This document shows, one piece after another, positions 6,456 to 18,871 of a DNA stretch of 64,000 nucleotides. The DNA lies in NCBI RefSeq assembly GCF_003148775.1, contig NZ_QGGW01000001.1, positions 124,001 to 188,000 on the forward strand. Direction: 5' to 3'. This DNA comes from Roseicyclus mahoneyensis (GTDB taxonomy: Bacteria > Pseudomonadota > Alphaproteobacteria > Rhodobacterales > Rhodobacteraceae). Every line of letters starts with the position of its first letter. Within the stretch, counting starts at the first letter, position 1. A program made the translations under genes and the position numbers. The notes below the pieces were generated by a model. The model worked only from the letters and a program-made list of their open reading frames with translations, searched no databases and had not been told where the DNA came from.

Positions 6456-7465
6456 CCGGTGGTCTCTCCCTCGGGTGTCTCGTCAAGCGTTTCGCCCCCG
6501 AATTCGGTCCGCACAATGCCCGCATCATACCCCTGCGACACAAGCCATTGCGCGAATTGCGCGGTGTAGCCATGTGTGACGAAGATCCTCTCGGCCCCGG
6601 TTGCGGCGATTGCGCTGTTCAACCCTGCCCAGTCGGCATGATCCGACACGACAAAGCCCCGGTCGGCCGCCCGTCTGCGGCGCACGCCACGCAGCTGCAT
6701 CCAGCCCGAGGCGAAGCCGGTGGAGACCGGGCCGAAGGCCCGCATCCACGCCGATCCCAGCGCCGAGGGCGGCGCCAGCACCATCGCGCCACGATGCGCC
6801 TTGCGGTCGAGATCGGCCGTCACCTGAACCGTGGGCGGCAGCGCGATGCCCTGCGCGCGCAGGACCGCGTTCGTCGCTTCGACCGCGCCATGGGTCAAGA
6901 TCGGGCCGATGGCGGGGTCGAGCAGACGCAAGACACGCTGCGCCTTGCCCAAGGCGTAGACGCCAAGCACGGGGGTCTGGCCCTTGGCGCGGGTCTCGGC
7001 CCACCAGCTGTTGATCTGAGCGGCAAGCGCGGTCTCGGTGGGCCAGCGGTAGATCGGCAGGCCAAAGGTGCATTCCGAGATGAAGGCGTGGCAGCGCACC
7101 GGCTCATAGGGTTCCGAAAGACCGTCGGGCGTGGTCTTGTAATCGCCCGACACGACCCAGACCTCGCCGCCGACCTCGACCCGGATCTGGGCCGAGCCCG
7201 GCACATGGCCTGCGGGGTGAAAGCTGATTGTGGCATCGCCGATGCGGGTGCGCTCACCGTAGCGGATGGTCTGGAGCGTGATGTCGCCCAGCCGGTGGCG
7301 GATCACCGGGCTTGCTGCCTCGGTCGCAAGATAGCGGCGGTGTCCCCAGCGGGCATGATCGGAATGGCCATGGGTGATCAGCGCCCGGTCGACCGGTTTC
7401 CAGGGATCGATATAGGCGTCGGCGGCCGGGCAGTAGATGCCGGCCTCGGTGAAGGTCAGGACCAT
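6452..7465 (-). CDS. Ligase-associated DNA exonuclease (metallo-beta-lactamase/beta-CASP type)
   Basis: A 337-residue MBL-fold nuclease. The metal site is THGHSDHARWG at residues 31-41, followed by HPAGHVPGSAQI and the Asp in VVSGDYKTTPDG; the C-terminal part contains SDHADW and VTHGYTAQFAQWL, as in mRNA 3' end processing-like beta-CASP exonucleases. The protein matches the family named ligase-associated DNA exonuclease, which is encoded beside the ATP-dependent ligase found at 2823-4421. Here two other genes separate them, but all are on the same strand with small gaps or overlaps, so one transcript is likely. The true start is the ATG at 7465 (MVLTFTEAG); upstream in-frame sequence belongs to the neighbouring gene's antisense side. 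Confidence 0.88.
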   Translation of the reverse strand: MVLTFTEAGIYCPAADAYIDPWKPVDRALITHGHSDHARWGHRRYLATEAASPVIRHRLGDITLQTIRYGERTRIGDATISFHPAGHVPGSAQIRVEVGGEVWVVSGDYKTTPDGLSEPYEPVRCHAFISECTFGLPIYRWPTETALAAQINSWWAETRAKGQTPVLGVYALGKAQRVLRLLDPAIGPILTHGAVEATNAVLRAQGIALPPTVQVTADLDRKAHRGAMVLAPPSALGSAWMRAFGPVSTGFASGWMQLRGVRRRRAADRGFVVSDHADWAGLNSAIAATGAERIFVTHGYTAQFAQWLVSQGYDAGIVRTEFGGETLDETPEGETTG

Positions 7466-7502
7466 GGCCGCAAGGTAGGCTTTCGCGGGGGCGGTGCAAG
7501 AT

Positions 7503-7562
7503 GGGGCTCTGCCCCCGTCGCCCGTTCCGGGCGCCGCCCCCGGGATATTTTCGAAACAGAGA
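7503..7562. repeat. GC-rich intergenic repeat element with two hairpins (REP-like)
   Basis: The gap between the exonuclease and methyltransferase genes holds GGGGC-TCT-GCCCC at 7503-7515, then CGCCCG-TTC-CGGGCG at 7519-7533, then a CCCCCGGGATATTTTCG segment. I recall this combination as an extragenic repeat scattered in Rhodobacteraceae genomes. It could end transcription of the methyltransferase-containing operon on the minus strand. Confidence 0.45.
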
Positions 7563-7566
7563 AGGG

Positions 7567-8193
7567 TCAGATTCTGCGGGCCACGAGAAAGCGCGATGGC
7601 GGGCGGCGGGGCAGGTCGGCGCGGGCCTCGATCGTGAAGCCTGCCGTGATGATGCGGCGTTCGAGCGCTGCGGGCGAGACGAAGCGGAGCGGCGGGGCCT
7701 TGCCGAACAGGCCAAGCGCGCGGACGAGCGGCCACAGCGCCAGCCAAGGCCCGCCGAGGCAGGGGGTTTTCGTGATAAGGAGCCCGCCGGGTTTGAGGAG
7801 GGAATGGGCCTCGGACAGGGCGGCGGGCAGGTCGGGCAAAAGGTGCAGAAGGTTGTAGGCGAGGATCGCATCGAAGGGGCCTTGGGGCAGGCTGCCGTCA
7901 CCGGGGCGGGCCTGAAGGGGCTGCAGGCCGGGGATGTCCGCGCCGCGTTCAGAGGCGATAGCGATCATTTCCGCCGCGTCATCGGTGGCGATGTAGCGCG
8001 CCGTGTGGGGCGCAAGCCGCAGCGCGGTGGAGCCGGTCCCGCAGCCAAGCTCAAGCACATGGGCCGAGGGCGGCAGGTGGGCGCGGGTGCGTGCCAGCGT
8101 CTCCTCCCAAGCTTGCGGGTTGCGCATGGGCATGGCGGCGTAACGGCGGGCGACGCGGTTCCAGAAGGCGGCTTGGGGGGTCTCGACAGTCAT
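7567..8193 (-). CDS. Class I SAM-dependent methyltransferase
   Basis: A 208-residue methyltransferase. The SAM-binding motif I is VLELGCGTGSTAL at residues 46-58; motif II/III regions are YIATDDAAEMI and FDAILAYNLLHLLPD, and the post-motif LLKPGGLLITKTP is clear. The N terminus (AAFWNRVARRYAAMP) matches generic UbiE-like class I enzymes. The acceptor is unknown. It is the last gene of the HMG-CoA reductase-led operon, but is separated from the ligase gene by 55 bases, unlike the other members, which overlap. It may therefore be an independent gene. The ATG at 8193 gives the standard length; the longer open frame overlaps the ligase gene and has low-complexity sequence. Confidence 0.85.
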   Translation of the reverse strand: MTVETPQAAFWNRVARRYAAMPMRNPQAWEETLARTRAHLPPSAHVLELGCGTGSTALRLAPHTARYIATDDAAEMIAIASERGADIPGLQPLQARPGDGSLPQGPFDAILAYNLLHLLPDLPAALSEAHSLLKPGGLLITKTPCLGGPWLALWPLVRALGLFGKAPPLRFVSPAALERRIITAGFTIEARADLPRRPPSRFLVARRI

Positions 8194-8248
8194 GGGTCTT
8201 GGTTGCCCGGCCGCAGTCGTGGCGCAAGGGGCGGTGGTGACGCGGGGG

Positions 8249-9676
8249 TCAGCCGAGGTCGCGGCGCGCAAGGGCCGCGCGGTCGATCTTGGAGGCATGG
8301 CGGCGGTCCATGGGCATGCGTCGGATGGCTGTGACGCGGACAATGCCGAGGGCGCGGGCGCGGGCCTGCCAGTCTTGCAGGTGGGACGCCGTCCCCTCGA
8401 TCACGAGGCAGGGCGAGCCCTTGCCCGGCATCAGCGCCGCCTGCCGCACGCCGGGCCATGTGCGGGCCGCGACCTCCACGGCGAAGGGGTGGAGGGTGGC
8501 GGCGTCGGTGCGCACCTCGGCGCCCGCGCGGCCCAGGAGCCAGAGGCGACCCGCCCCGTCGAGGCGCCCGGCGTCGCCGGTGCGGTGCCAGATGCGCCCG
8601 TCTTCGCGGATCTTGTTTTCGGCGTCATGGGCGGGGTCCAGATAGCCGGCGTTCACATGCGCGCCCGCGACGAGGATCTCGCCGTGTTGCAGCCGAAGGT
8701 CTATGCCGGGGACGGGGTGGCCTGCCAAGAGGCCCGCGCCCGCATCCATCGCGGCCCGGTCGCGGGCGGTGATGGCGGCGGCCTCGAGATGGGCGATGGG
8801 TTCGGCCTCGGTCGAGCCGTAGACGCAGGCGATGCGCAGGCCGGGGCGGTTTGACCACAGCCGGTCGAGGAGGTCGGGAAAGACCGGGCCGCCGCCGGTG
8901 AAGACGGTGTGCAGCATGGGCGTCGCGGGCGCGCGGGCGAGCGTCTCGCACAGCGCGGGCGGCAGCAGCGCGCGGGTGACGTTTTGCGTGGCGATCCGGG
9001 CGGCGAGGCGGTCGGGGGATAGATGGGCAAGCCGCGACATCTTCCAGTCGGGCAGGACGGAGGTGCGGCCGCTGGCGATGTTGATGAGGACAAAGACCGG
9101 GAAGGCTGTGAGGTCGCGTTCCTCGGTGGCGCTGTCGAGCAGCGGGGCGATGGCGTGGTGCTGGGCCGCAAGAAAGGCATGGCTGCGCGGGATCGCCTTG
9201 GGCGCGCCCGTCGTGCCCGATGTGAAGGAGATGAGCGCGATGTCATCGGGTCCGGGCAGGGGTCTGCCCAGGTTTGCGCCACCGCCGGTCGAGGGGCGCA
9301 GGTGGATCATCGGCCAAAGCGCGGGTAGGGCAAGCTGCAGCAGGCCGTAAGCCCCGGCGCTGCAAAAAGCGCGGGGGCGGGTGGTGCGGGCGGCGTGGAT
9401 GAGGCCGCGCAGGCCCATCGCGGGTTCGGGCAGCACAACCGTGGCGCCGAGTGACCAGACGGCGGCGAGCGCGGCGTAGAGATCCGCACCGACGGGCATG
9501 GCGAGCAGCACCCGGTCGCCCGGCGCGATGCCGCGCGCGGCCCAACTGCTTACGAAGGCGTGGCTGCGCGTTTGCAAATCCGCAAAGCTGATGGCGTTGC
9601 CAGACGCCTCGACCAATGCCGTGCGGTCGGGGTGGCGCGCGACCGCGGCGGCGAAGTCGCGGAGCAGGTCAGACAT
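8249..9676 (-). CDS. AMP-forming acyl-CoA synthetase/acyl ligase (ANL superfamily)
   Basis: A 475-residue adenylate-forming enzyme that would activate a carboxylic acid as acyl-AMP and transfer it to a thiol. The P-loop-like core motif is ISFTSGTTGAPKAIPRSH near residues 149-166; VYGSTEAEPIAHLE (A5) and WHRTGDAGRLDGAGRLWLLGR (A7/A8) follow. The C-terminal catalytic Lys is likely in RRHASKIDRAAL. It is shorter than typical 520-560 residue CoA ligases. It overlaps the upstream acyltransferase-like gene by 8 bases. Within the HMG-CoA reductase operon it could supply an acyl donor; the actual substrate is unknown. Confidence 0.88.
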   Translation of the reverse strand: MSDLLRDFAAAVARHPDRTALVEASGNAISFADLQTRSHAFVSSWAARGIAPGDRVLLAMPVGADLYAALAAVWSLGATVVLPEPAMGLRGLIHAARTTRPRAFCSAGAYGLLQLALPALWPMIHLRPSTGGGANLGRPLPGPDDIALISFTSGTTGAPKAIPRSHAFLAAQHHAIAPLLDSATEERDLTAFPVFVLINIASGRTSVLPDWKMSRLAHLSPDRLAARIATQNVTRALLPPALCETLARAPATPMLHTVFTGGGPVFPDLLDRLWSNRPGLRIACVYGSTEAEPIAHLEAAAITARDRAAMDAGAGLLAGHPVPGIDLRLQHGEILVAGAHVNAGYLDPAHDAENKIREDGRIWHRTGDAGRLDGAGRLWLLGRAGAEVRTDAATLHPFAVEVAARTWPGVRQAALMPGKGSPCLVIEGTASHLQDWQARARALGIVRVTAIRRMPMDRRHASKIDRAALARRDLG

Positions 9677-10514
9677 CGAGCTTGAGGCCCAGAAGCTCGT
9701 AGCGGCGAAAGACCGTTGCGCCTTCCATGCGGCTGCGTTCGGCGGAACGGTTGGCGTCGTGGATGAGCGCGTGGATCACCGTCTGAAAGCCCAGAGCGCG
9801 GGCCGCGCTGTGGCAGGCGTGGACAAGGTGGCGGCCCGCGCCCGGTATGAGGCTGGCGTAGGTCTTGAGGATGATGGTCTTGGTCTCCAGCCCTTCGGCG
9901 TAGTTCGGGATGGCGAAGAGATACCCCGCAAGCGACCCGTCCGGGCGGCGGGCGAAAAAGATGAGATCGGGGCGCATCATCGGCATGACCGGGCGATACA
10001 TGGCGAGGAAGTCGTCTTCGGTGATCGGCGTGTAGAAGGCATTGGCGGCGAAGGCCCCGGTCGAGAGGGCAAAGACCTCGCGGATGAGCGCCTCGGGGTT
10101 CGCGCCGTCCCAAGGCTCGATGGTGATTGCGTCGGTCGCGGGGGGCGGCGTGGGGTCGATGTCGGCGAGCCGCATCCGGGCCGAGAAATAGCGCGCCACG
10201 GGGGTGAAACCTGCCGCAGCGAAAATCGCGGGCTCATGGGGGCGGTTGGTCGGTTCCAGCAAAAATGGCGGGGTTCCGTCGGTCTCGCTGACGAAGCGGT
10301 AGGCGTGCCATGTGTCGCCTGCCATCGGCCCCAGCACACGGGTTCGGTCCGCGGCGCGGAGGTGGGTAAGCGCCTCTGCCAGCAGGCGGGCCCCGGCCTC
10401 GGCGTCGCGGAAGGCGATATTGCCGAGGGTCGCGGCGCGCGCGCCCTCCCAGTCCGGGCCGTCGAGGTGGAGAGTGAGCGATGCGCCCTCGGTCCTGAAG
10501 GTCTCGTGGGTCAA
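9669..10514 (-). CDS. GNAT-like N-acyltransferase family protein
   Basis: A 281-residue protein that reads as a bipartite GNAT-like acyltransferase: an N-terminal half with VLGPMAGDTWHAYRFVSETD and FLLEPTNRPHEPAIFAAAGF, and a C-terminal half with DLIFFARRPDGSLAGYLFAIPNYAEG, followed by the helix-strand pair KTYASLIPGAGRHLVHACHSAARALGF where the acyl-CoA pyrophosphate would bind. NRSAERSRMEGATVFRRYELLGL ends the fold. Donor and acceptor are unknown. Its start overlaps the stop of the upstream kinase-like gene by four bases and its stop overlaps the ligase gene by eight, so it is translated as part of the operon. Pairing with an acyl-CoA ligase suggests sequential activation and transfer. Confidence 0.7.
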   Translation of the reverse strand: MTHETFRTEGASLTLHLDGPDWEGARAATLGNIAFRDAEAGARLLAEALTHLRAADRTRVLGPMAGDTWHAYRFVSETDGTPPFLLEPTNRPHEPAIFAAAGFTPVARYFSARMRLADIDPTPPPATDAITIEPWDGANPEALIREVFALSTGAFAANAFYTPITEDDFLAMYRPVMPMMRPDLIFFARRPDGSLAGYLFAIPNYAEGLETKTIILKTYASLIPGAGRHLVHACHSAARALGFQTVIHALIHDANRSAERSRMEGATVFRRYELLGLKLDV

Positions 10515-11842
10515 CCTGCACCTCCGGCAGAGACAGGCACGCCCGTGCCGTTCCAGACGAGAACGGCGTAAAGGGCGAGCGGCGGGATCAACGACAGGGT
10601 GGTCAGTTTCAGCACCCGGTCCTGCGCGAAAGCGGCGGGGGCAAGGGCCGCAGCACCCGCGCCGATTGCAAGGCAGAGCAGCGCCACGGGCCAGAGCGGT
10701 TCCGCCCAGAGCGTGCCCGGAGGGTTCAGCGCCGCCGCCCCCTCGCGCAGGCCGAAGAGAAGGGCGGCCACCAGTGGCACGAGGATCAGACGCCCCTGCA
10801 GGGCCAACGTCGCCAGCCCCATGGAAAGACCCATCGCCGTCAGCCCGTAGAAGGCCACGGCATTCCAGCCTGTGGCAATCCCCAATGCCAGCCAGCCGAA
10901 GCTGAAAAGGCCGAGTGCGGCCACGATGTCGAGATCGCCATAGTCATCCGCACCTCGGTTGCGCAGGCTGGCCCAAGTATGTGCGATCAGGACGGTCGCG
11001 GGGAGCAGAGCGTTCTGCGCCTCGGTCACGGCGAGGATCAGGAACATCGCCACCACATGCACCCGCGCGGAATGGCGCGTCAGGCCGAAACGTGGCCCCA
11101 GCGCGCGAAAGCCCACAAGGGTGACGAAGAACAGCGCCGCCAGCGTGAGCAGGTCGAACAGGCTGCTCTTGGCATGGATGGCCAAAAAGACCAGCAGGCC
11201 CAGCGGCAGGAACAGGTTGTCGAAGCCGCGCCAGCTTTGCGCCTCGACCAGCGCGCCAAAGGCGGCGACCATGAGGGCCAGCGTGAGGATATTGGCGGGC
11301 GGAAGGCCCGACAGGAACATCAGGCAGACCAGCGCGATCAGCAGCGTGACGGTGAAGAAGACCACCGTGCCCTCGACGCTTTTCTGGCCCGCCTCCACGG
11401 CAAAACGCTTGCGGCCATAGGTGGTGCCCGCCAGCGCCGCAGCCGCATCGGCCAGCGTCAGGACCGCGATGGGCAGGATGTAGAGGAGCGGGTCTCCGTT
11501 CGACAAAAAGAAGCAGAGCCCGACCGCCGTGGCGAGCAGGAAATCCCCGTAGGACCGCCGCTCGACCGCGTGAAGCGTCTGGCCGAGATTGCCCGAAAGG
11601 GCGGGCAGGCGCAGCGCGATCATCGCCACCAGTGTCAGGCCGATCAGCATGTAGACCGGCCAACGGTCGGGAAAGAGCCACGGCAGGATCAGCGAGTAAA
11701 GGCCGGTGCCGACATGGATGAGCTTGCGGCTGACCTCGGGTTGGATGTGGCGGCGCTGGCCTGCCATGCGCACCAGCGCCATCAGGCCCAAGAGCACGCC
11801 GACCGAGCCGAAGGCGGTGGCGATTTGCAGGGCAGTGCTCAA
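10511..11842 (-). CDS. Dolichol/phytol kinase-like (CTP-dependent) polytopic membrane protein
   Basis: A 443-residue integral membrane protein with about 12 or more hydrophobic segments. The N-terminal half carries the signature of the dolichol kinase/phytol kinase/phosphatidate cytidylyltransferase superfamily: SRKLIHVGTGLY near residue 40, DAAAALAGTTYGRKRF near residue 132, and KSVEGT near residue 154. Known members phosphorylate polyprenols or phytol with CTP. The C-terminal half is an additional membrane domain that I cannot assign, making the protein about twice the length of a simple phytol kinase. It overlaps the DUF3419 gene upstream and the acyltransferase gene downstream by four bases each. 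A role in making a prenyl phosphate for the adjacent UbiA-type enzyme is an inference. Confidence 0.72.
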   Translation of the reverse strand: MSTALQIATAFGSVGVLLGLMALVRMAGQRRHIQPEVSRKLIHVGTGLYSLILPWLFPDRWPVYMLIGLTLVAMIALRLPALSGNLGQTLHAVERRSYGDFLLATAVGLCFFLSNGDPLLYILPIAVLTLADAAAALAGTTYGRKRFAVEAGQKSVEGTVVFFTVTLLIALVCLMFLSGLPPANILTLALMVAAFGALVEAQSWRGFDNLFLPLGLLVFLAIHAKSSLFDLLTLAALFFVTLVGFRALGPRFGLTRHSARVHVVAMFLILAVTEAQNALLPATVLIAHTWASLRNRGADDYGDLDIVAALGLFSFGWLALGIATGWNAVAFYGLTAMGLSMGLATLALQGRLILVPLVAALLFGLREGAAALNPPGTLWAEPLWPVALLCLAIGAGAAALAPAAFAQDRVLKLTTLSLIPPLALYAVLVWNGTGVPVSAGGAG

Positions 11843-12939
11843 TCCCTGACCTCCTCGACCACGAAGTCGGAGTAGAAGAAGGCCATGTCGCGCGCCTTCA
11901 GGTCATCCTCCAGCGCGGTCTGGGTGGTCACGCGCGGCGCAAGGGCCGCAGGCACCCGTCGCGGTGCCATCATGTTCCAGTAGACCAGCCGCGCGCCCGG
12001 CGCGCAGGCGGTGAGGATGCTGGCATAGACCTGTTCGAAGACAGGCGGCGACATGTACTCAAAAATGTCCGACAGGTTGAAGCCGTCGGCCATTTCGCCT
12101 GTGCCTACAAAGGCCTCGAGCGATCCGGGACGGATGTCGAGCCGGTCGAGCCGGGCGCGGATCGTGTCGTAATGCTCGGGCCGCCACGCCATCGGCAGAG
12201 CCGCGCCATGGGTGCCGGTCATGATCCAGTGCAGGTAGGGATTGGCGCTCGGGTCGGTGTCGACGCCCGCGTGGCGCAGGCGGCGGGCCACGTGCTGCGC
12301 GGGGCTGCCTGCCACATGGTCGAAGAACGCCTTGTCGCGGCCCATGCGGCCCATGACGAAGCGCGAGAAGAACAGGTTCAACAACATCCGCCAACGCCAT
12401 GTATCGAAACGGGACTCAAAAAATACGCGGCGGGCTGCGGGCGGGCGGGGGGTAAAGATATCCGCGATGGTGCGGCGGGAATGGACAAGCGGCAAAAGCC
12501 TGGTGCGGAAGATGCGGAAGTAGCGTTCAAACTTGCCGACGCCGCCTGCGCCGAACCGGTCGACATCGTCGGCCAGCGCGGCCCAGAAGGCTTGGGTTTC
12601 CCCGTCCAGCCCGTCGGTCGCGCGCGCCAGCAGCGCCCTTCGCCGATCCGACGGGCGCGCGCCCATCAGTTCCAGAAATTCGGCGTGGCCAAGGGAGCGA
12701 ATGGCCCCGATCCTGAGCCACAGGCAGGCGATTTGCGCGGGCGAGAGGTCGACCACAACCACCTTGGCGGGGTCGAGCACCAGCATCGCAAGCGCATTGT
12801 CGCCCGCCGAACAGATCGACACCAACGTGCCGCCCGCCTTGTCCCCCAAGGCTGCGGTCAGCACATCGGCGTCTTCCCACAACTGCGCATAGCGGATGTG
12901 GTCGAAGGTAGCGCGGGTCTCGATCTCAGAGCGTGCCAT
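11839..12939 (-). CDS. DUF3419 (BtaA-like) SAM-dependent 3-amino-3-carboxypropyl transferase family protein
   Basis: A 366-residue protein of the DUF3419 family, whose characterised member BtaA moves the 3-amino-3-carboxypropyl group of SAM onto the hydroxyl of diacylglycerol as the first step of betaine lipid synthesis. The SAM-binding region is LVSICSAGDNALAMLVLDPAKVVVVDLSPAQ near residues 38-70, and the family block ADGFNLSDIFEYMSPPVFEQVY lies near the C terminus. No BtaB-like N-methyltransferase can be identified with confidence next to it; the methyltransferase at 7567-8193 is generic. The start is the ATG at 12939, which overlaps the end of the PEP-synthase-like gene by 14 bases. Given its isoprenoid-type neighbours, the acceptor may be other than diacylglycerol. 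Confidence 0.8.
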   Translation of the reverse strand: MARSEIETRATFDHIRYAQLWEDADVLTAALGDKAGGTLVSICSAGDNALAMLVLDPAKVVVVDLSPAQIACLWLRIGAIRSLGHAEFLELMGARPSDRRRALLARATDGLDGETQAFWAALADDVDRFGAGGVGKFERYFRIFRTRLLPLVHSRRTIADIFTPRPPAARRVFFESRFDTWRWRMLLNLFFSRFVMGRMGRDKAFFDHVAGSPAQHVARRLRHAGVDTDPSANPYLHWIMTGTHGAALPMAWRPEHYDTIRARLDRLDIRPGSLEAFVGTGEMADGFNLSDIFEYMSPPVFEQVYASILTACAPGARLVYWNMMAPRRVPAALAPRVTTQTALEDDLKARDMAFFYSDFVVEEVRD

Positions 12940-15343
12940 GACGTTCCACCTCTCCGGTCGTGCCGTCCACGGTGACGGTTTCACCGTCGCTGATCCAGCC
13001 GGTCGCGCCCTTCAGGCCGACAACGCAAGGGATGCCCAACTCGCGCGCGACGATGGCCGAATGGGACAGCAGCGAGCCGCGTTCGACCACGATGGCGGAT
13101 GCGTTGGAGAACACTGCGATCCACCCCGGATCGGTGTGACGCGCGACAAGGATCTCGCCTGCAGCAAGCGACTGGGTGCGCGGGTCGCGGATGACGCGGG
13201 CCTTGGCCGTGACGCGGCCCGCTGAACAGCCGGTCGCCTTTTGGCGGGTGCTGTCGTCGCGGGTGGTCATCGTCTCGGTCCATGAGGGGGCGATGGCGGG
13301 GCCGCGCATCTCGATCCGCTCGGGCGGGTCGGGACGGGTGGCGGCCGCATGCGCTTCGGCCTTTCTCAAGGCGATCAGAGACTTGAGGTCTCCCGACAGG
13401 CCGAAGCCCTCGACCGCGCCCAGAACCTCCTGCGTGGTCAGGTGAAAGATGTCGCGGGGCGTCTCGATCAGGCCGCGCGCCGCGAACTCGCGGCCAAGCG
13501 CCAGAAAGACGCGGCGCGCATGGCCGAAGATGCGGGTGCGTTCGAAGCGCAGGTTCTCGCGGTCGCGCACGCGCGCCTTCGTCCAGCCCATGACGGCGCG
13601 GGCGATGGTGCGCTTCAGCGGGTTGGGGAAAAGGGCTGCCCAGTCGGGGGTGATGGCCGCGTGCTGCGCCTGCGCGCCGCGCGCGGCGTGCGCAAGGATG
13701 GCCGCGATCAGGCTGGCAGGGTCGTCGCGCAGCGTCAGGCTTTCGAGCTTCAACTCCTCGGTGCAGCGGTCGCCGAACTTCGCAAGATAGCTTTCCACCG
13801 CCCGCGCGATCTCGGGGTGCCCCTCCAGCGCCATCAGCCCGCGTTCGGCCAGTGCCGCCTCGATCCTTGCGGCGCGCACCATGCCGCCCAGCTCGGCAAT
13901 GCGCCGCGCGGGCTCGGCCGACACGATATCGCCCTGACCGATCATCACGTCGTTGTGCAGCGCAAGGCCCCGCTCGCCCAGCCAGCGCGCCATCAGGTTG
14001 CGGGATGCGCCAAAGGCGATCATGCACAGGAAATCATTGACGAGCGGCGCATCCCAGCGGTCGAGCAGCGTCGCCTCGATCTTGCGGTATTCAGCCGCCA
14101 GCGCGGTGGGGTTCGCGGTCTCGGGGTCGAAACCGCTGTCGAGCGCCGCATTGAGCCGCTCGTAGAACCGCCGCCGCGTGCGGGGCAACAGCACCGCCTG
14201 CCAGACCAGACCCGCGCCCGCGCGCGCCAGCCGCAGGTATTCGACGAGCTTGGCCGCGCCCGTCGCCGGCGGTGGGCCGATGCTGTTCGTCACCTCCGAC
14301 GGCATGGGCGTATCCACGCCCATCATCGTCTCCATATACGCCCGGTTGAGCGAGAAGCCGGGCAAGAGCGCCAGCGCGCGATACCAGTTGACGAGGTTGT
14401 AATAGACCCGCCCATCGACCCGCCCCAGCATGTTGCCGAAAACGGCGGAGTTGGCGGCGATGGTCGCCTCAGGAACGCCCAGAAGCGCCACGAAGGCGCG
14501 GTAGACGCGGGCGTAGACATGGACGGCGAAAGAATAGGTCAGCGGGCTGACAAGGCCGGGGTAGCTTTCCACGATGTTGGAATTGTCGAAGATGGTCAGG
14601 GCGTTGTCGGGGGTGGGCGGCGGCAGTAGCGCCGTGGTGATGGGGCGGGATTGCAAGATGTGAAGGCCCTCGGCGTCGAGCGCCCATTCCACGTCTTGCG
14701 GCCTGCCGAATGTCGCCTCGGCGCGCCGGGCAAGGGCGGCGATGGCCAACGCCTCCTCCGCCGTCAGGACGGTGGGTGGGGTGGCGCAGGTGGCGGCGTC
14801 GGTGACGGTCCAATCCTCGCCATCCTCCTCGCCCGAGACGAGCCTTTCGCCCAAGCCCGCGATGGCCGAGATCACCACGCGGTCGCGCCGCCCCGACACC
14901 GGATCGGCGGAAAAGGCGACACCGGCCGCGCGGGCCGCGATCATGCGTTGCACGATGACGGCGGGCCCTTCGGCGGCACCGCCCGCCTTGAGCGCGCGGT
15001 AGGTCGCCACCGTCTCGCCAAAGCCCGAGGCCCAGACGGCGCGGGCGGCCTGTTCCACGCCTTCGGGGGGCACGTTGAGATGCGTGTCGAACTGGCCTGC
15101 GTGGCTGTGCTCAACCCCGTCTTCGGCACGCGCGGAACTCCGCACGGCATAGGGGCCGGGGCCGAGGGTGGCGAGCGCGTCGGTCAGACCGGCCACCGGC
15201 GCGTCACCCTCGAAGGCTTCGGCGGGGATGACGAAGAAGGCGGGGGGGGCGAAACCGTGGGCCGCCAGATGGGCCAGCGCCGCTGCCTTGCCGCCGACCT
15301 GCCCGACCTCGGTGGCTTGGGCTTGCGGGACGATGGGGGACAT
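12926..15343 (-). CDS. PEP synthase/pyruvate phosphate dikinase-like phosphotransferase
   Basis: An 805-residue multidomain enzyme. The N-terminal ATP-grasp domain (about residues 1-300) contains VGGKAAALAHLAAHG, YAVRSSARAEDG and GVAFSADPVSGRRD. The C-terminal swivelling domain has the phosphohistidine motif GSLLSHSAIVARELGIPCV near the end. There is no PEP-binding TIM barrel of standard PEP synthase after it; instead the middle part is a long unassigned region, as in rifampin phosphotransferase-like dikinases that pass the beta-phosphate of ATP to a small molecule. The substrate here is unknown. It begins at the ATG at 15343, overlapping the prenyltransferase stop by one base; a longer open frame runs antisense over that gene and is not credible. 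Confidence 0.83.
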   Translation of the reverse strand: MSPIVPQAQATEVGQVGGKAAALAHLAAHGFAPPAFFVIPAEAFEGDAPVAGLTDALATLGPGPYAVRSSARAEDGVEHSHAGQFDTHLNVPPEGVEQAARAVWASGFGETVATYRALKAGGAAEGPAVIVQRMIAARAAGVAFSADPVSGRRDRVVISAIAGLGERLVSGEEDGEDWTVTDAATCATPPTVLTAEEALAIAALARRAEATFGRPQDVEWALDAEGLHILQSRPITTALLPPPTPDNALTIFDNSNIVESYPGLVSPLTYSFAVHVYARVYRAFVALLGVPEATIAANSAVFGNMLGRVDGRVYYNLVNWYRALALLPGFSLNRAYMETMMGVDTPMPSEVTNSIGPPPATGAAKLVEYLRLARAGAGLVWQAVLLPRTRRRFYERLNAALDSGFDPETANPTALAAEYRKIEATLLDRWDAPLVNDFLCMIAFGASRNLMARWLGERGLALHNDVMIGQGDIVSAEPARRIAELGGMVRAARIEAALAERGLMALEGHPEIARAVESYLAKFGDRCTEELKLESLTLRDDPASLIAAILAHAARGAQAQHAAITPDWAALFPNPLKRTIARAVMGWTKARVRDRENLRFERTRIFGHARRVFLALGREFAARGLIETPRDIFHLTTQEVLGAVEGFGLSGDLKSLIALRKAEAHAAATRPDPPERIEMRGPAIAPSWTETMTTRDDSTRQKATGCSAGRVTAKARVIRDPRTQSLAAGEILVARHTDPGWIAVFSNASAIVVERGSLLSHSAIVARELGIPCVVGLKGATGWISDGETVTVDGTTGEVERHGTL

Positions 15344-16248
15344 CAGATCAGCCTCACGATCAGGGGCGCGAAGCCTGCCAGCGCGTAGCAGGCAAAGACC
15401 CAGAGGCCCGCCATAGTGTCCATCCGTTTCTGCGCGGCAGGCGTCGGCGCGCGGGCGTAGCTTGCGGCAGAGGCAAGGCAGACCAAGGCCATCGCTCCGC
15501 CAAGGGTCAGCGTGATCCAGAAAGCCCCGGTGACGAGAGCAACCCCCATCAAAAGCGCAAAGGAAACCACGACGCAGCCCGACCACACAAGCGCTGCCCA
15601 CCCCGGACCCCAGAGCGCGGAATAGCTGTCGACGCCCGCGATCTCGGCCTCGGGGGACCAGAGCTTGCGCCCGATCTCCAGCACGCAGCCATTGACGAAG
15701 GAAAGCGCAAGGAACAGCACAAGGCCCGGTGCGGGCGTGCCTGATGGCAGCCATTCCATGGCCGTGAGCAACAGGTCGATCAGCGGCATGATCGCCATGT
15801 GGCTGACGAGGTAGAGGATGGGGCGCGCCTTGAGCCATGCGGGAAATCCGAATTCCAGCGTCATCGCGGCCAGCCAGACCCAAACCAGTGCCAAGAGCCA
15901 CAGGACGGGCGGGTGCCACGCCCAAGCGGCGAGCGCCGCCAAGGGCAGCGATGCCGCCCCGAGCGTCAGAACTGCGCGCAGCGAGATCAGCCCGCGCGGG
16001 ATCGGGCGGTCGGGGCGCAGGCGGCGGTCGTCGTCGAGGTCTTTCCACTCGTCGCAGACCCGCATCTGGAAGAAAAGGAGCAGGGCCACGACAAAGCCCG
16101 CCAGAAATGCGCCGGGGCCGGGCAGGGGACGCCCCGCCATCTCTGCCGACACCGCGATGCTGGCGCTTGAGAACACCGCCAGAAGCGGCGCGGTCTTGGC
16201 CAGCGGAAAGCGTTCCTTCTGGTAGGTCCAGAGGGTTCGGGGCGTCAT
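15343..16248 (-). CDS. UbiA-family prenyltransferase
   Basis: A 301-residue polytopic protein with about eight or nine membrane helices. The first Asp-rich motif is CDEWKDLDDDRRLRPDRPIP at residues 65-84, the prenyl diphosphate/Mg site of UbiA-type enzymes. The second loop motif appears as LEIGRKLWSPEAEIAGVDSY, where an E-I-G-R-K sequence and Asp stand where many members have a second Asp-rich motif. UbiA enzymes transfer prenyl groups to aromatic, glycerol or porphyrin acceptors. None of the usual ubiquinone, heme or chlorophyll partner genes are nearby. It overlaps HMG-CoA reductase upstream by four bases and the dikinase-like gene downstream by one. Confidence 0.85.
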   Translation of the reverse strand: MTPRTLWTYQKERFPLAKTAPLLAVFSSASIAVSAEMAGRPLPGPGAFLAGFVVALLLFFQMRVCDEWKDLDDDRRLRPDRPIPRGLISLRAVLTLGAASLPLAALAAWAWHPPVLWLLALVWVWLAAMTLEFGFPAWLKARPILYLVSHMAIMPLIDLLLTAMEWLPSGTPAPGLVLFLALSFVNGCVLEIGRKLWSPEAEIAGVDSYSALWGPGWAALVWSGCVVVSFALLMGVALVTGAFWITLTLGGAMALVCLASAASYARAPTPAAQKRMDTMAGLWVFACYALAGFAPLIVRLI

Positions 16249-17510
16249 CTCAGGCGGGCCAGCGTTTCATGGGCGCGTGTGAAATGCCCCGCAGCGATTG
16301 CCGCGACAATGGAGATTTCCCCGCATAGACAGGTTGCCGCCACCACTTCGGCCAGTGCAGCACCATGGCCCGTACCCTTGAGCCCGAGAATGTTCAGCCC
16401 CGCCGACTGGCTGGGCAGGCCGGTGCCGCCCCCGACGGAGCCGACAAGGATGTTGGGCATGGTGACGCTGCAAAAAAGGTCATTCCCCCGCGCCTCCATC
16501 CGGGTGATGCCCATGGCGCTTTCGGCCACGCAGGCCGCGTCTTGCCCGGTGGCGATGTAGAGTGCCGCAAGGCCATTGGCGAAATGGGCCTGCGCGCCGA
16601 TCTGGCCTGACAGATGCGCGCCAAGGTTGGCGACCTGCCCGTAATCGAGCATCGCCTGCACGGATGTGCCCAGCGTCTTTTCGACCACCTGCGCCTTGAG
16701 CGTGACCGAGGCGGAGACCTTGCGCCCGCGCCCGGTGACGAGGCCCAGAAACGACGCCTTCTTGTCGCCCGAGAAATTGCCTTCGATATACCACGCCTTG
16801 AGGGCGACCGGGCAGCCCGCCACGATCGCCTCGCACAGCGCGTTGGTGGCGATGGTGACCATGTTCTGCCCCGCCGCATCGCCCGTGGTGTAGCGGCAGA
16901 TGAGAAACACCACGTTATTGTCGATCACGGGTTCGAGCGACACCAGCTTGCCATGCCGCGTCGTCTTCTCGGCGGTGGCCTTGAGGGTGTCGACGTGGCT
17001 CACCACCCACTCGACGAAGAGGCCCGCATCGAGCAGGTTGTTCAGCACGAAGGCCGGCGTCCGCATAACGCCCTCATACAGGATGGCCGTCGACATGCCG
17101 CCCGATTTCGTCGCCGCCAGCGCACCGCGCGCATAGGAGGCGACCAGCGCAGCCTCGGTCGTGGCCAGCGGCACATGATAGTCGCCATGCGCGTTCAACC
17201 CGTTGATCCGCAAGGGCCCGATGATGCCCACGGGCAGCTTTACCGTGCCGATGAAGTTCTCGATATTGGCGTCGAAGCGGCCGGGGCTCTCCATGGTGAT
17301 CGGATCGGCCAGCGCCACGCGATCCTCGGGCGTGGCCGTGCCCATCAGCCTGTCCCAGTAGCGCGCGACCGAGGCTTCGGTCGCTTTGCGCACGGGGCGG
17401 AGCGTGGCAAAATCCGCATCTCTGGGCAACATGCGGTCTTGTAGGGGCGCGTTGAGAAAGCGGGCGCGCACACGGCTCAGCATGTCCTTGACATGGGAGG
17501 GGATCGTCAT
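16245..17510 (-). CDS. Hydroxymethylglutaryl-CoA reductase
   Basis: A 421-residue HMG-CoA reductase, which reduces HMG-CoA to mevalonate with two NAD(P)H. The motifs resemble the class I (eukaryote/archaeal-like) enzymes: TTEAALVASY with Glu119, the nucleotide-binding DAAGQNM at 211-217, SGDKK with Asp249 and Lys250, GQDAA with Asp324, GGTGLPSQ at 361-368, and GHFTRAHE with His414. All catalytic residues expected from the human enzyme are in place. No membrane domain precedes the catalytic part. It is the first gene of the operon and no other mevalonate-pathway gene is in the window. Most Rhodobacterales make isoprenoids by the MEP route, so this gene is unusual. The ATG at 17510 follows a palindromic site at 17529-17546. 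Confidence 0.95.
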   Translation of the reverse strand: MTIPSHVKDMLSRVRARFLNAPLQDRMLPRDADFATLRPVRKATEASVARYWDRLMGTATPEDRVALADPITMESPGRFDANIENFIGTVKLPVGIIGPLRINGLNAHGDYHVPLATTEAALVASYARGALAATKSGGMSTAILYEGVMRTPAFVLNNLLDAGLFVEWVVSHVDTLKATAEKTTRHGKLVSLEPVIDNNVVFLICRYTTGDAAGQNMVTIATNALCEAIVAGCPVALKAWYIEGNFSGDKKASFLGLVTGRGRKVSASVTLKAQVVEKTLGTSVQAMLDYGQVANLGAHLSGQIGAQAHFANGLAALYIATGQDAACVAESAMGITRMEARGNDLFCSVTMPNILVGSVGGGTGLPSQSAGLNILGLKGTGHGAALAEVVAATCLCGEISIVAAIAAGHFTRAHETLARLR

Positions 17511-17651: not shown

Positions 17652-17951
17652 ATGAGCAAGATCACGGATCTTTGGCGGGGCCACCTGCCGCTGGGCGATG
17701 CCTTCTGGACCTGGGCCGTGATGGGCGGTCTGTTGGTCAATGTCGCGACGAGCGGGATCTTTCTGTGGCTCATCACAAATGACCATCCGATCCCGGCGCT
17801 GCTGGTGGGCTATGGCCTCTCGTTGCCCTATAACGCCTTGGCGACGGTGGGGGTCTGGCGGTCGGCTGCACGCCATGACGGGCCGCAGGTTCAGGCGGAC
17901 GTCGCGCGCGGCGCAGTGCTTGTGCTGATGGCGGGGTTGAGCCTGACATGA
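17652..17951 (+). CDS. Small hypothetical membrane protein
   Basis: A 99-residue protein with about three hydrophobic helices: near residues 20-41 (WAVMGGLLVNVATSGIFLWLI), 48-64 (PALLVGYGLSLPYNALA) and 82-97. The short loop after helix two holds VWRSAARHDG. I do not recognise a family with a known function. The ATG at 17652 follows GGGC only loosely, so the start is by length and hydrophobic pattern. Its stop overlaps the start of the next membrane protein gene by four bases (ATGA), so the two are translated together. It is transcribed divergently from the HMG-CoA reductase operon. Confidence 0.65.
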   Translation: MSKITDLWRGHLPLGDAFWTWAVMGGLLVNVATSGIFLWLITNDHPIPALLVGYGLSLPYNALATVGVWRSAARHDGPQVQADVARGAVLVLMAGLSLT

Positions 17952-18871
17952 GCGCTGCGCGCGCGCCCTTCGGCACTGATCCGATGGCCCGGATCGACGG
18001 GTTCGTCGCGCGGTATTTCACATGGCCCGGCAGCCTCAGGCTCAACCGTATGGCGCTAGGTTGGGACATTGCGCGGGCTCCTGCCAACCTGCTGCTCTCG
18101 CCGGTGCTGGTGCTGCCGCGCCTGCTGGCATGGGTGCTGATGCGGCTGGGTTTGGGTCGCGCGGCGGGCTGGTTGCGCGGGCGGCGCATCGTGATCCGGA
18201 CGGCGGTGGCCGCGCAGGTCGAGGCCGCCGTTTTGCACGACCTGCTGGACGTGTCCTTGCCGCAGGGCATCCCCCGCGACCGGGCCGCGACGGCGCGCGC
18301 CATCCTTGCCGCCCCGTCGTTTCGCGCCGCCGTCCAGCGCTGCGGCAGTATCGAGGGTGCGCAGGCGATGGCCGACCGGGTCGCGGGCGCGCTGGGCGAT
18401 TACAGCGGCACGCGGTCTGCCATGGCCGAGATCGTGACCGCCTTTCTCACGCTGGTCTTGGGCGCGATGGTGTTCCACGCGCTGACGCCCGGCATGATCT
18501 CGATGGCGCCCGGTGTCGCCGGGGCATTGGCGCACAGCGTCGCCATTGCGGATTTCCCGCTGGGCGACCGGCTGGGCGGGGTCTGGTATGGGGTGTTTCC
18601 GGTCGGCCCGTCGCCCGGTCTTGTCGCGGCGAGTTTCGCGGGGCTGTTGTTGATGGGGTCGACCGTCACCGCCTTTGCCGGGATCGTCGCCGACCCTTTG
18701 CAGGTGCGCACAGGGCTGCACCGCCGCCGCCTCGTGCGGTTGATGCACGTGATCGAGGCGGAACGCTCGGCCTGCCCGGGCGCGGGATTTGCCGCGCGCG
18801 AGCATCTGGTGATGCGGGTCTTTGACCTGTGGGACACAGCGCTGGCTGCGCTCAGGGTCTTTCGCGGCTGA
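17948..18871 (+). CDS. Hypothetical membrane protein
   Basis: A 307-residue protein with an N-terminal amphipathic region, a hydrophobic segment near residues 37-60 (APANLLLSPVLVLPRLLAWVLM), two strong helices at about 155-175 and 220-245 (AASFAGLLLMGSTVTAFAGIVAD), and a charged C terminus. Hydrophilic middle parts contain RIVIRTAVAAQVEAAVLHDLLD and SIEGAQAMADRVAGALGDYSGTRSAMAEI. I cannot name the family with confidence; similar proteins occur in Rhodobacteraceae as far as I recall. It overlaps the small membrane protein gene upstream by four bases, which suggests a shared membrane function. It converges with aspartate aminotransferase. Confidence 0.65.
   Translation: MSAARAPFGTDPMARIDGFVARYFTWPGSLRLNRMALGWDIARAPANLLLSPVLVLPRLLAWVLMRLGLGRAAGWLRGRRIVIRTAVAAQVEAAVLHDLLDVSLPQGIPRDRAATARAILAAPSFRAAVQRCGSIEGAQAMADRVAGALGDYSGTRSAMAEIVTAFLTLVLGAMVFHALTPGMISMAPGVAGALAHSVAIADFPLGDRLGGVWYGVFPVGPSPGLVAASFAGLLLMGSTVTAFAGIVADPLQVRTGLHRRRLVRLMHVIEAERSACPGAGFAAREHLVMRVFDLWDTALAALRVFRG

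Follow-up and report, generated by a model that had tools for sequence, protein, structure and literature searches.

In plant prenol salvage the last step is carried out by a UbiA-type transferase. According to PMC10849223, phytol/farnesol kinase comes first and is followed by phytyl-phosphate kinase, and PMC11324152 names the Caulobacter ceramide genes as aasR, cerR, acpR, spt and cerS. Here we describe an operon of seven genes, termed A to G, in a window of 64,000 nucleotides from Roseicyclus mahoneyensis (contig NZ_QGGW01000001.1, positions 124,001 to 188,000; all coordinates below are positions in the window or, where a locus label is given, in that locus). The operon lies on the minus strand from 17510 down to 8249 of a genome of 4.03 Mb that is 99.99% complete. 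Its seven genes are kept together as a block, its reductase of the 3-hydroxy-3-methylglutaryl coenzyme A (HMG-CoA) reductase family is altered, and in related clusters individual enzymes are swapped for others. We tentatively propose that these genes form a conserved route, modular in its make-up, to an undescribed polar lipid, leading from an acid through acyl-CoA, alcohol and phosphate to the action of the dikinase and the UbiA protein, the addition of an aminocarboxypropyl group and acylation.

Neighbouring genes of the operon overlap by 1 to 14 bases. Gene A (17510-16245, minus strand as all following genes; 421 amino acids, aa) encodes a protein of the HMG-CoA reductase fold (Pfam HMG-CoA_red, PF00368, E = 9.7e-108), and gene B (16248-15343; 301 aa; Pfam UbiA), overlapping A by 4 bases, a divergent UbiA-family membrane protein. 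Gene C (15343-12926; 805 aa from its ATG, which overlies the TGA of B with 1 base of overlap) combines a PPDK_N and a PEP-utilizers mobile domain. Gene D (12939-11839), overlapping C by 14 bases counted from the ATG of D, encodes a DUF3419 protein (PF11899, E = 3.5e-53). Genes E (11842-10511; 443 aa; 4-base overlap with D) and F (10514-9669; 281 aa; 4-base overlap with E) yielded no Pfam match; the product of E resembles membrane kinases of prenol, dolichol or diacylglycerol, and that of F is a tandem GNAT acyltransferase according to its model. Gene G (9676-8249; 475 aa; 8-base overlap with F) encodes an AMP-forming acyl/aminoacyl ligase (AMP-binding, PF00501, E = 1.9e-37). Among the matches listed, none of A, B, C and G reaches an NCBIfam cut-off; for D, E and F, NCBIfam returned nothing at E 0.001.

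To recruit relatives, GTDB species genomes were searched with A, which yielded 44 loci in addition to that of R. mahoneyensis itself (L001), which is not included in this count. In 39 of the 44, genes A to G are collinear on one strand (counting L039, although its open reading frames, ORFs, look split), and the remaining five (L002, L003, L037, L042, L043) run into contig edges inside the block. This collinearity is more than chance would produce. The original prediction had described an eight-gene operon that included a methyltransferase (gene H; 8193-7567, minus strand; Pfam methyltransferase); its gene order, its 1-14 base overlaps and its gap of 55 bases between G and the ATG of H at 8193 were reproduced here. 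H itself was matched in none of the 44 loci (tblastn, E 1e-6), 36 of which extend at least 900 bases beyond G. Because these 36 are long enough to show H, the operon is delimited as a seven-gene unit (8249-17510), and the eight-gene version was rejected; the fetched loci extend only about 2 kb beyond G, so that window genes farther downstream are poorly judged by this comparison. Distance matrices compared over 53 of 58 stretches, namely those in which all seven profiles matched, gave correlations of 0.92-0.97 for all gene pairs, a value that by itself is no proof of co-inheritance because it partly reflects the deep split between phyla. The conserved block, together with the Bacteroidota clusters described below, bears out the earlier view of a real, uncharacterised and co-inherited set of lipid-type enzymes. 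The original prediction had named a lack of joint conservation as a refuting result, and the comparison did not give that result. As to the flanks, the methyltransferase at 7567-8193 shows weak similarity to methyltransferases near BtaA-type genes, and upstream a DUF6635 protein is encoded divergently from the operon (17948-18871, plus strand).

Reductase A is the sole HMG-CoA reductase of its genome. According to PMC9500038, the carboxylate on the HMG moiety of a bound statin is held by a salt bridge from K735. Residues were counted in 82 reductase rows (70 distinct, 64 of these from operon-bearing genomes), with positions set by a profile alignment with four solved chains. The position of human Ser684 is occupied in A by E243 and that of human Lys735 by A294. 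Glutamate is found at the former in all 64 operon-genome reductases; the latter holds Ala in 52 of them, Ser in 7, Gly in 4 and Phe in 1, and in no case Lys. The catalytic residues are kept, K250 and D324 in 64/64, E84 in 62 and H414 in 63, the remainder being gaps; H409 was rejected as the catalytic histidine of A, since this 'GH' histidine varies and H414 is conserved. Both Ser and Lys are retained in the four solved chains and in two Streptomyces reductases from mevalonate clusters, which show Thr in the E84 column, taken as an alignment fault. TIGR01240 (mevalonate decarboxylase), the one mevalonate-pathway model used, left 25 of the 27 type I genomes unmatched, that of R. mahoneyensis among these 25, and exceeded its cut-off in 2 of 14 controls. 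Because the HMG-carboxylate residues are changed and the decarboxylase is mostly unmatched, it is very likely that A does not serve the mevalonate pathway, and its sequence indicates an altered charge at the far end of the pocket. HMG-CoA, which the original prediction had named as a substrate of the family, was thus rejected on residues and genome context, and we infer that A is an acyl-thioester reductase of a non-mevalonate clade.

Reductases of this family were also found outside such clusters. Two orphan Vibrio proteins (L046 13866-15128 and L047 11983-13242, from the plasmid collection) are 52-55% identical to A and have Asp and Thr at the Ser and Lys sites; no relatives of B to G adjoin them, and their annotation as HMG-CoA reductases is perhaps mistaken. 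The reductase of Alteromonas macleodii pBGP9 (L048) has Ala and Ser at the two sites, and that of Sinorhizobium a gap and Cys. The orphan reductases of all three genera were rejected as cluster members, since no relatives of B to F adjoin them; a weak G match in Alteromonas was taken as a generic AMP ligase. In L048 (6283-13044) the reductase lies downstream of a 'thermostable hemolysin', an AMP-binding protein, an iron-containing redox enzyme and a short-chain dehydrogenase/reductase (SDR), possibly a second non-mevalonate context. In L049 (Sinorhizobium meliloti pMl1, 6920-16616) the reductase homologue lies amid biotin carboxylase, carboxyltransferase and indolepyruvate oxidoreductase genes, and its annotated neighbours do not form a mevalonate cluster.

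The DUF3419 protein D is the only one of its kind in the genome. Its model (mean pLDDT 86) retrieved mostly S-adenosylmethionine (SAM) methyltransferases with low TM-scores in Foldseek, and because these matches are weak only the fold class is supported. By homology to BtaA, D would act in aminocarboxypropyl donation and is a putative SAM aminocarboxypropyl transferase. In a tree of the 83 rows in which the D profile matched, 53 of 55 BtaA-like rows formed one clade with 100/100 support and the window D lay outside it; the BtaA-like rows are proteins from outside this operon and include no experimentally proven BtaA. The exceptions are BTA_L106 and BTA_L116, which fall among operon rows, and OP_L131, which falls on the BtaA side. 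The score gap and the tree led us to reject D as BtaA itself. For F, the AlphaFold model (mean pLDDT 91.4) found tandem GNAT proteins as its best Foldseek matches (7q3a, 1ozp and 2wpw, E 4.6e-12 to 5.2e-11; for 7q3a E 4.6e-12 and a TM-score of 0.65 by query length), and this high-confidence model thus predicts a tandem GNAT acyltransferase fold. Sequence searches of D and F against solved structures returned nothing useful.

The membrane protein B matches PF01040 at 48.5 bits (cut-off 34.2), the lowest score among the five UbiA matches of the genome, and D66, D70, D73, D74 and an ExGRK motif (191-195) are invariant across nine aligned sequences. C has an N-terminal ATP-grasp domain and a C-terminal phosphohistidine domain, and the histidine of SLLSHSAIV (760 in alignment A1) is invariant in nine sequences. 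The closest solved sequences to C belong to the 5fbs/5hv1 group, deposited as phosphoenolpyruvate (PEP) synthase; we take 5fbs and its relatives to be rifampin phosphotransferase. PEP synthase has a C-terminal PEP-binding barrel, which was not found in C, where Pfam recognised only PPDK_N and the mobile domain, the latter ending near the C terminus; C also scores below the cut-off of all 25 models listed. In E, the residues R39, K40, H43, D132, K154, G158, D208 and N209 are invariant in nine sequences. These motifs presumably resemble those of the dolichol/phytol kinase family, and together with the kinases that replace E in related clusters they make E a probable lipid-alcohol kinase; a sequence search of solved structures found no relative of E. 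G has intact adenylation motifs, with K160, YGSTE (286-290) and K463 invariant in nine sequences; its best NCBIfam match is NF006754, followed by olefin beta-lactone synthetases, all below cut-off.

Carriers of the operon are mostly Rhodobacteraceae, joined by two Bosea, Chenggangzhangella and two metagenome-assembled genomes (MAGs) of Devosia and Hyphomicrobiales, in which the block is visible only up to C and B. One of the 44 loci (L045; 28-48% identity) comes from a Bacteroidota MAG named Crocinitomicaceae and lacks the C-terminal half of E. Strong matches to the D profile (>500 bits) were obtained in 12 of 149 genomes of the family, sampled at one per genus. Among 398 sampled phylum genomes, the only strong match was in that of R. 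mahoneyensis itself. In the phylum of L045, 12 of 395 sampled genomes exceeded 190 bits, as did 12 of 195 genomes in the class of G893 at 240 bits and 12 of 197 in the class of G677 at 165 bits, these three samples overlapping. Matches to the D profile below 90 bits were taken to be of the BtaA type, and on this sequence criterion genomes G446 and G498 encode both the D type and a BtaA-type relative. A relative of E in G111 stands alone.

Among the Bacteroidota regions, all seven genes recur in three arrangements, A-G, F-G-A-B-C-D-E and C-D-E-F-G-A-B; in L196, C-D-E-F-G is followed by an interval and then by A-B. In L190, L192, L193 (a short contig beginning within C) and L194, G occurs without a neighbouring A, and each of these genomes has exactly one HMG-CoA reductase elsewhere; from a reading of unnamed ORFs, no mevalonate genes were recognised around three of these four distant reductases, the fourth lying on a contig of less than 4 kb. 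L125, L129 and L201 have neither A nor G; in their place stands an SDR, of the thioester-reductase/male-sterility type, paired with a phosphatidylserine decarboxylase (PSD), both named in L201 by similarity only. No HMG-CoA reductase was found in these three genomes, and none of the stretches compared combines A or G with SDR or PSD. The kinase of these clusters is E in L125 and a YegS lipid kinase in its place in L129 and L201. The D protein of L125 clusters with type I Bacteroidota D proteins (L121, L189; support 100/81), and the exchange therefore seems to have occurred within the family. In L195 one protein of 807 aa (11110-13533) consists of A fused to an EcKL/APH kinase domain; E was not seen within the 18 kb examined of this 20-kb contig, which adds an MMPL-family protein (PF03176). 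In the piece of L125 that was scanned Pfam found no match, and 'MMPL' there rests on similarity to the L195 protein. A Polyketide_cyc2-like lipid-binding protein is encoded between F and G in L126 (14620-15195, by Pfam) and L128 (7638-8210, by similarity). The MMPL protein of L195 and the Polyketide_cyc2 proteins of L126 and L128 fit a lipid product. Together with the models of D, whose fold resembles SAM-dependent enzymes, and of F, a tandem GNAT, the replacement of E by YegS or its absence beside the EcKL/APH fusion lends support to the BtaA-like, kinase-like and acyltransferase assignments made before.

Other regions keep less of the set. A second cluster type (L130, L199, L202, L203, L204) combines D and a GNAT protein with a YegS kinase, a LysA-like pyridoxal phosphate (PLP) decarboxylase and a class II aldolase, and lacks A, B, C, E and G. 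The DUF3419 domain of L130 forms a fusion with a PEMT/ICMT-like domain. L205 (4449-9781), where a DUF3419 protein occurs with an alpha-oxoamine synthase, an AIR-synthase-like protein and another UbiA protein, may be a sphingoid-like variant. In L131, D is present and all of these partner genes are missing, and the contig of L200 stops soon after D and GNAT.

Based on these data, the following order of reactions can be proposed. G would convert a carboxylic acid into a CoA thioester. Using two NAD(P)H, A would reduce this thioester to a primary alcohol; in the variant clusters the thioester-reductase-like SDR would carry out the reduction. E would phosphorylate the alcohol using CTP, with YegS or the fused EcKL/APH kinase taking this step elsewhere, and C would add a second phosphoryl group or otherwise activate the phosphate. 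The UbiA-type transferase B would then move the activated alkyl or prenyl group to an acceptor, D would attach an aminocarboxypropyl group from SAM, and F would acylate the newly introduced amine, giving a homoserine-derived lipid that is N-acylated and bears an alkyl or prenyl arm. The line from acid through thioester and alcohol to phosphate is favoured because the reductase and the kinase are exchanged in the variants. The terms 'isoprenoid' and 'meroterpenoid' are possible, their sole basis being the UbiA family name and the prenol-kinase-like character of E.

Several points weigh against this proposal. We infer the substrates and the product of the seven enzymes, and a diphosphate made by C and used by B is suggested by analogy only. 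UbiA prenyltransferases have an NxxxDxxxD plus a second Asp motif; B has no clear canonical NxxxDxxxD, with no Asn ahead of D66/D70/D73/D74, and its second motif is ExGRK. No Pfam kinase family was matched by any of nine E members even at E 1. Within the 35 Rhodobacteraceae-type sets the distance correlations are lower (0.48-0.90). The SDR clusters also bring PSD, which the proposed chain does not explain, and because the second cluster type retains just D, a GNAT and a lipid kinase beside a PLP decarboxylase, D and F may belong to a separate pathway. Finally, two Bacteroidota genomes, G695 and G601, match TIGR01240 at 160.7 and 163.6 bits (cut-off 171.35; E ~1e-47), and by this similarity may run a real mevalonate pathway.

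The PSD and PLP decarboxylase partners bear on a different order of events, which we regard as possible and on balance unlikely. Here G and A would act on the carboxylate introduced by D: an O-linked homoserine lipid would be activated at its carboxyl by G and turned into an amino alcohol by A, N-acylated by F to a ceramide-like lipid and phosphorylated by E on the free hydroxyl, and elsewhere the carboxylate would be lost to a decarboxylating enzyme (PSD, PLP decarboxylase or alpha-oxoamine synthase). This order is favoured because a decarboxylating enzyme occurs in 10 of the 12 D stretches without G: PSD in L125, L129, L201 and L198 (there a 118-aa piece at a contig end), a LysA-like protein in L130, L199, L202, L203 and L204, and an alpha-oxoamine synthase in L205, part of these being named by similarity. 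G and a decarboxylase are never found in one stretch, and Glu at the former carboxylate site of the reductase would suit an ammonium group. However, D of L131 is without any such partner, the contig of L200 ends before one is seen, L130 carries a relative of alpha-oxoamine synthases close by as well, and the SDR of L125, L129 and L201 would be left without a counterpart in A to G. The geometry fits less well too, the alpha-amino group of a homoserine thioester being two bonds from the thioester carbon as against four bonds for the HMG carboxylate, and a lipid-linked CoA thioester would be unusual. The modular acid-to-phosphate pathway proposed above and this alternative share their end product, since each ends in a lipid carrying an aminocarboxypropyl unit derived from SAM, or what is left of that unit.

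We consider it improbable that the product is instead a secreted prenylated small molecule, a meroterpenoid or signalling compound, finished in some Rhodobacteraceae by a divergent P450 and a sulfotransferase. Directly upstream of A, a divergent pair of sulfotransferase and cytochrome P450 genes occurs in 14 of the 45 loci; at least 1.3 kb of upstream sequence is available for 41 of these 45. The pair and the patchy distribution (strong D in 12 of 149 genera of the family and in 1 of 398 phylum genomes sampled) would suit such a compound. Against it, a lipid is indicated by the partner proteins (MMPL, lipid kinase, PSD and DUF3419), and Pfam revealed no polyketide synthase, nonribosomal peptide synthetase or aromatic-ring enzyme among the seven proteins, two of which are unmatched. 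For the lipid pathways considered above, the pair suggests that in part of the family the end form is hydroxylated or sulfated. An example of the pair is L023 (7550-9921), with 13 other loci alike; the window has no match to the pair, and two distant P450-like matches (25-26% identity) lie downstream in L005 and L006. Fungal mevalonate-containing siderophores use mevalonate in a side product, and a genuine HMG-CoA reductase doing likewise, with G as mevalonyl ligase and F as mevalonyl transferase, is very unlikely here: the catalytic residues are kept and an AMP ligase and a GNAT protein share the operon, but the carboxylate-binding Ser and Lys are gone in 64/64 and the SDR exchange is hard to reconcile with mevalonate.

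In the open-licence PMC literature, the only papers covered, we found no description of the gene set, of the repurposed reductase or of the module swaps. The enzyme families are known; we assign the set to polar-lipid biosynthesis, with a real possibility that its product forms a new class of lipid. It is possible, at a level of confidence somewhat below an even call, that the operon specifies a new class of bacterial membrane lipid spread across Alphaproteobacteria and several Bacteroidota lineages, made by a modular route in which an HMG-CoA reductase fold was recruited for a non-HMG thioester and SAM provides a homoserine or propylamine unit. If so, many 'hydroxymethylglutaryl-CoA reductase' annotations in Rhodobacteraceae, some Hyphomicrobiales, Bacteroidota and perhaps Vibrio would refer to enzymes that do not form mevalonate, the HMG-CoA reductase fold would have a second chemistry readable from two residues, and the exchangeable modules could allow lipid structure to be predicted. 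Unidentified aminolipids are often reported from marine Rhodobacteraceae, and the operon could supply the genes for one of them.

Among known systems, class I HMG-CoA reductase shares with A the fold family and the catalytic Glu, Lys, Asp and His, whereas in A the HMG-carboxylate site is gone (Glu for Ser684; Ala, Ser, Gly or Phe for Lys735) in genomes of which 25 of 27 leave the decarboxylase unmatched. BtaA/BtaB synthesis of the betaine lipid diacylglyceryl-trimethylhomoserine (DGTS) is resembled in that D belongs to DUF3419 and its fold is weakly similar to that of SAM methyltransferases, and in the DUF3419-PEMT/ICMT-like fusion of L130; in contrast, D falls outside the clade of 53 BtaA-like rows, occurs together with a BtaA-type relative in G446 and G498, and sits with UbiA, dikinase, kinase, GNAT and ligase genes. 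The rifampin phosphotransferase/PEP synthase family shares with C the ATP-grasp and phosphohistidine domains, and C differs by its below-cut-off model scores and its lipid-type neighbours. The Caulobacter ceramide genes are likewise an aminolipid set that includes an acyl ligase and an N-acyltransferase; by Pfam, A to G include neither spt (serine palmitoyltransferase) nor acpR of the bacterial sphingolipid pathway, and alpha-oxoamine synthase relatives occur only in L205 and near L130. Plant prenol salvage differs in that C is a dikinase and not VTE6, D and F have no counterpart, and an acid ligase and a reductase would supply the alcohol; what the operon has in common with it is a prenol-kinase-type membrane kinase, a second phosphotransferase and a UbiA-family enzyme, whose order E-C-B would parallel that of the plant route.

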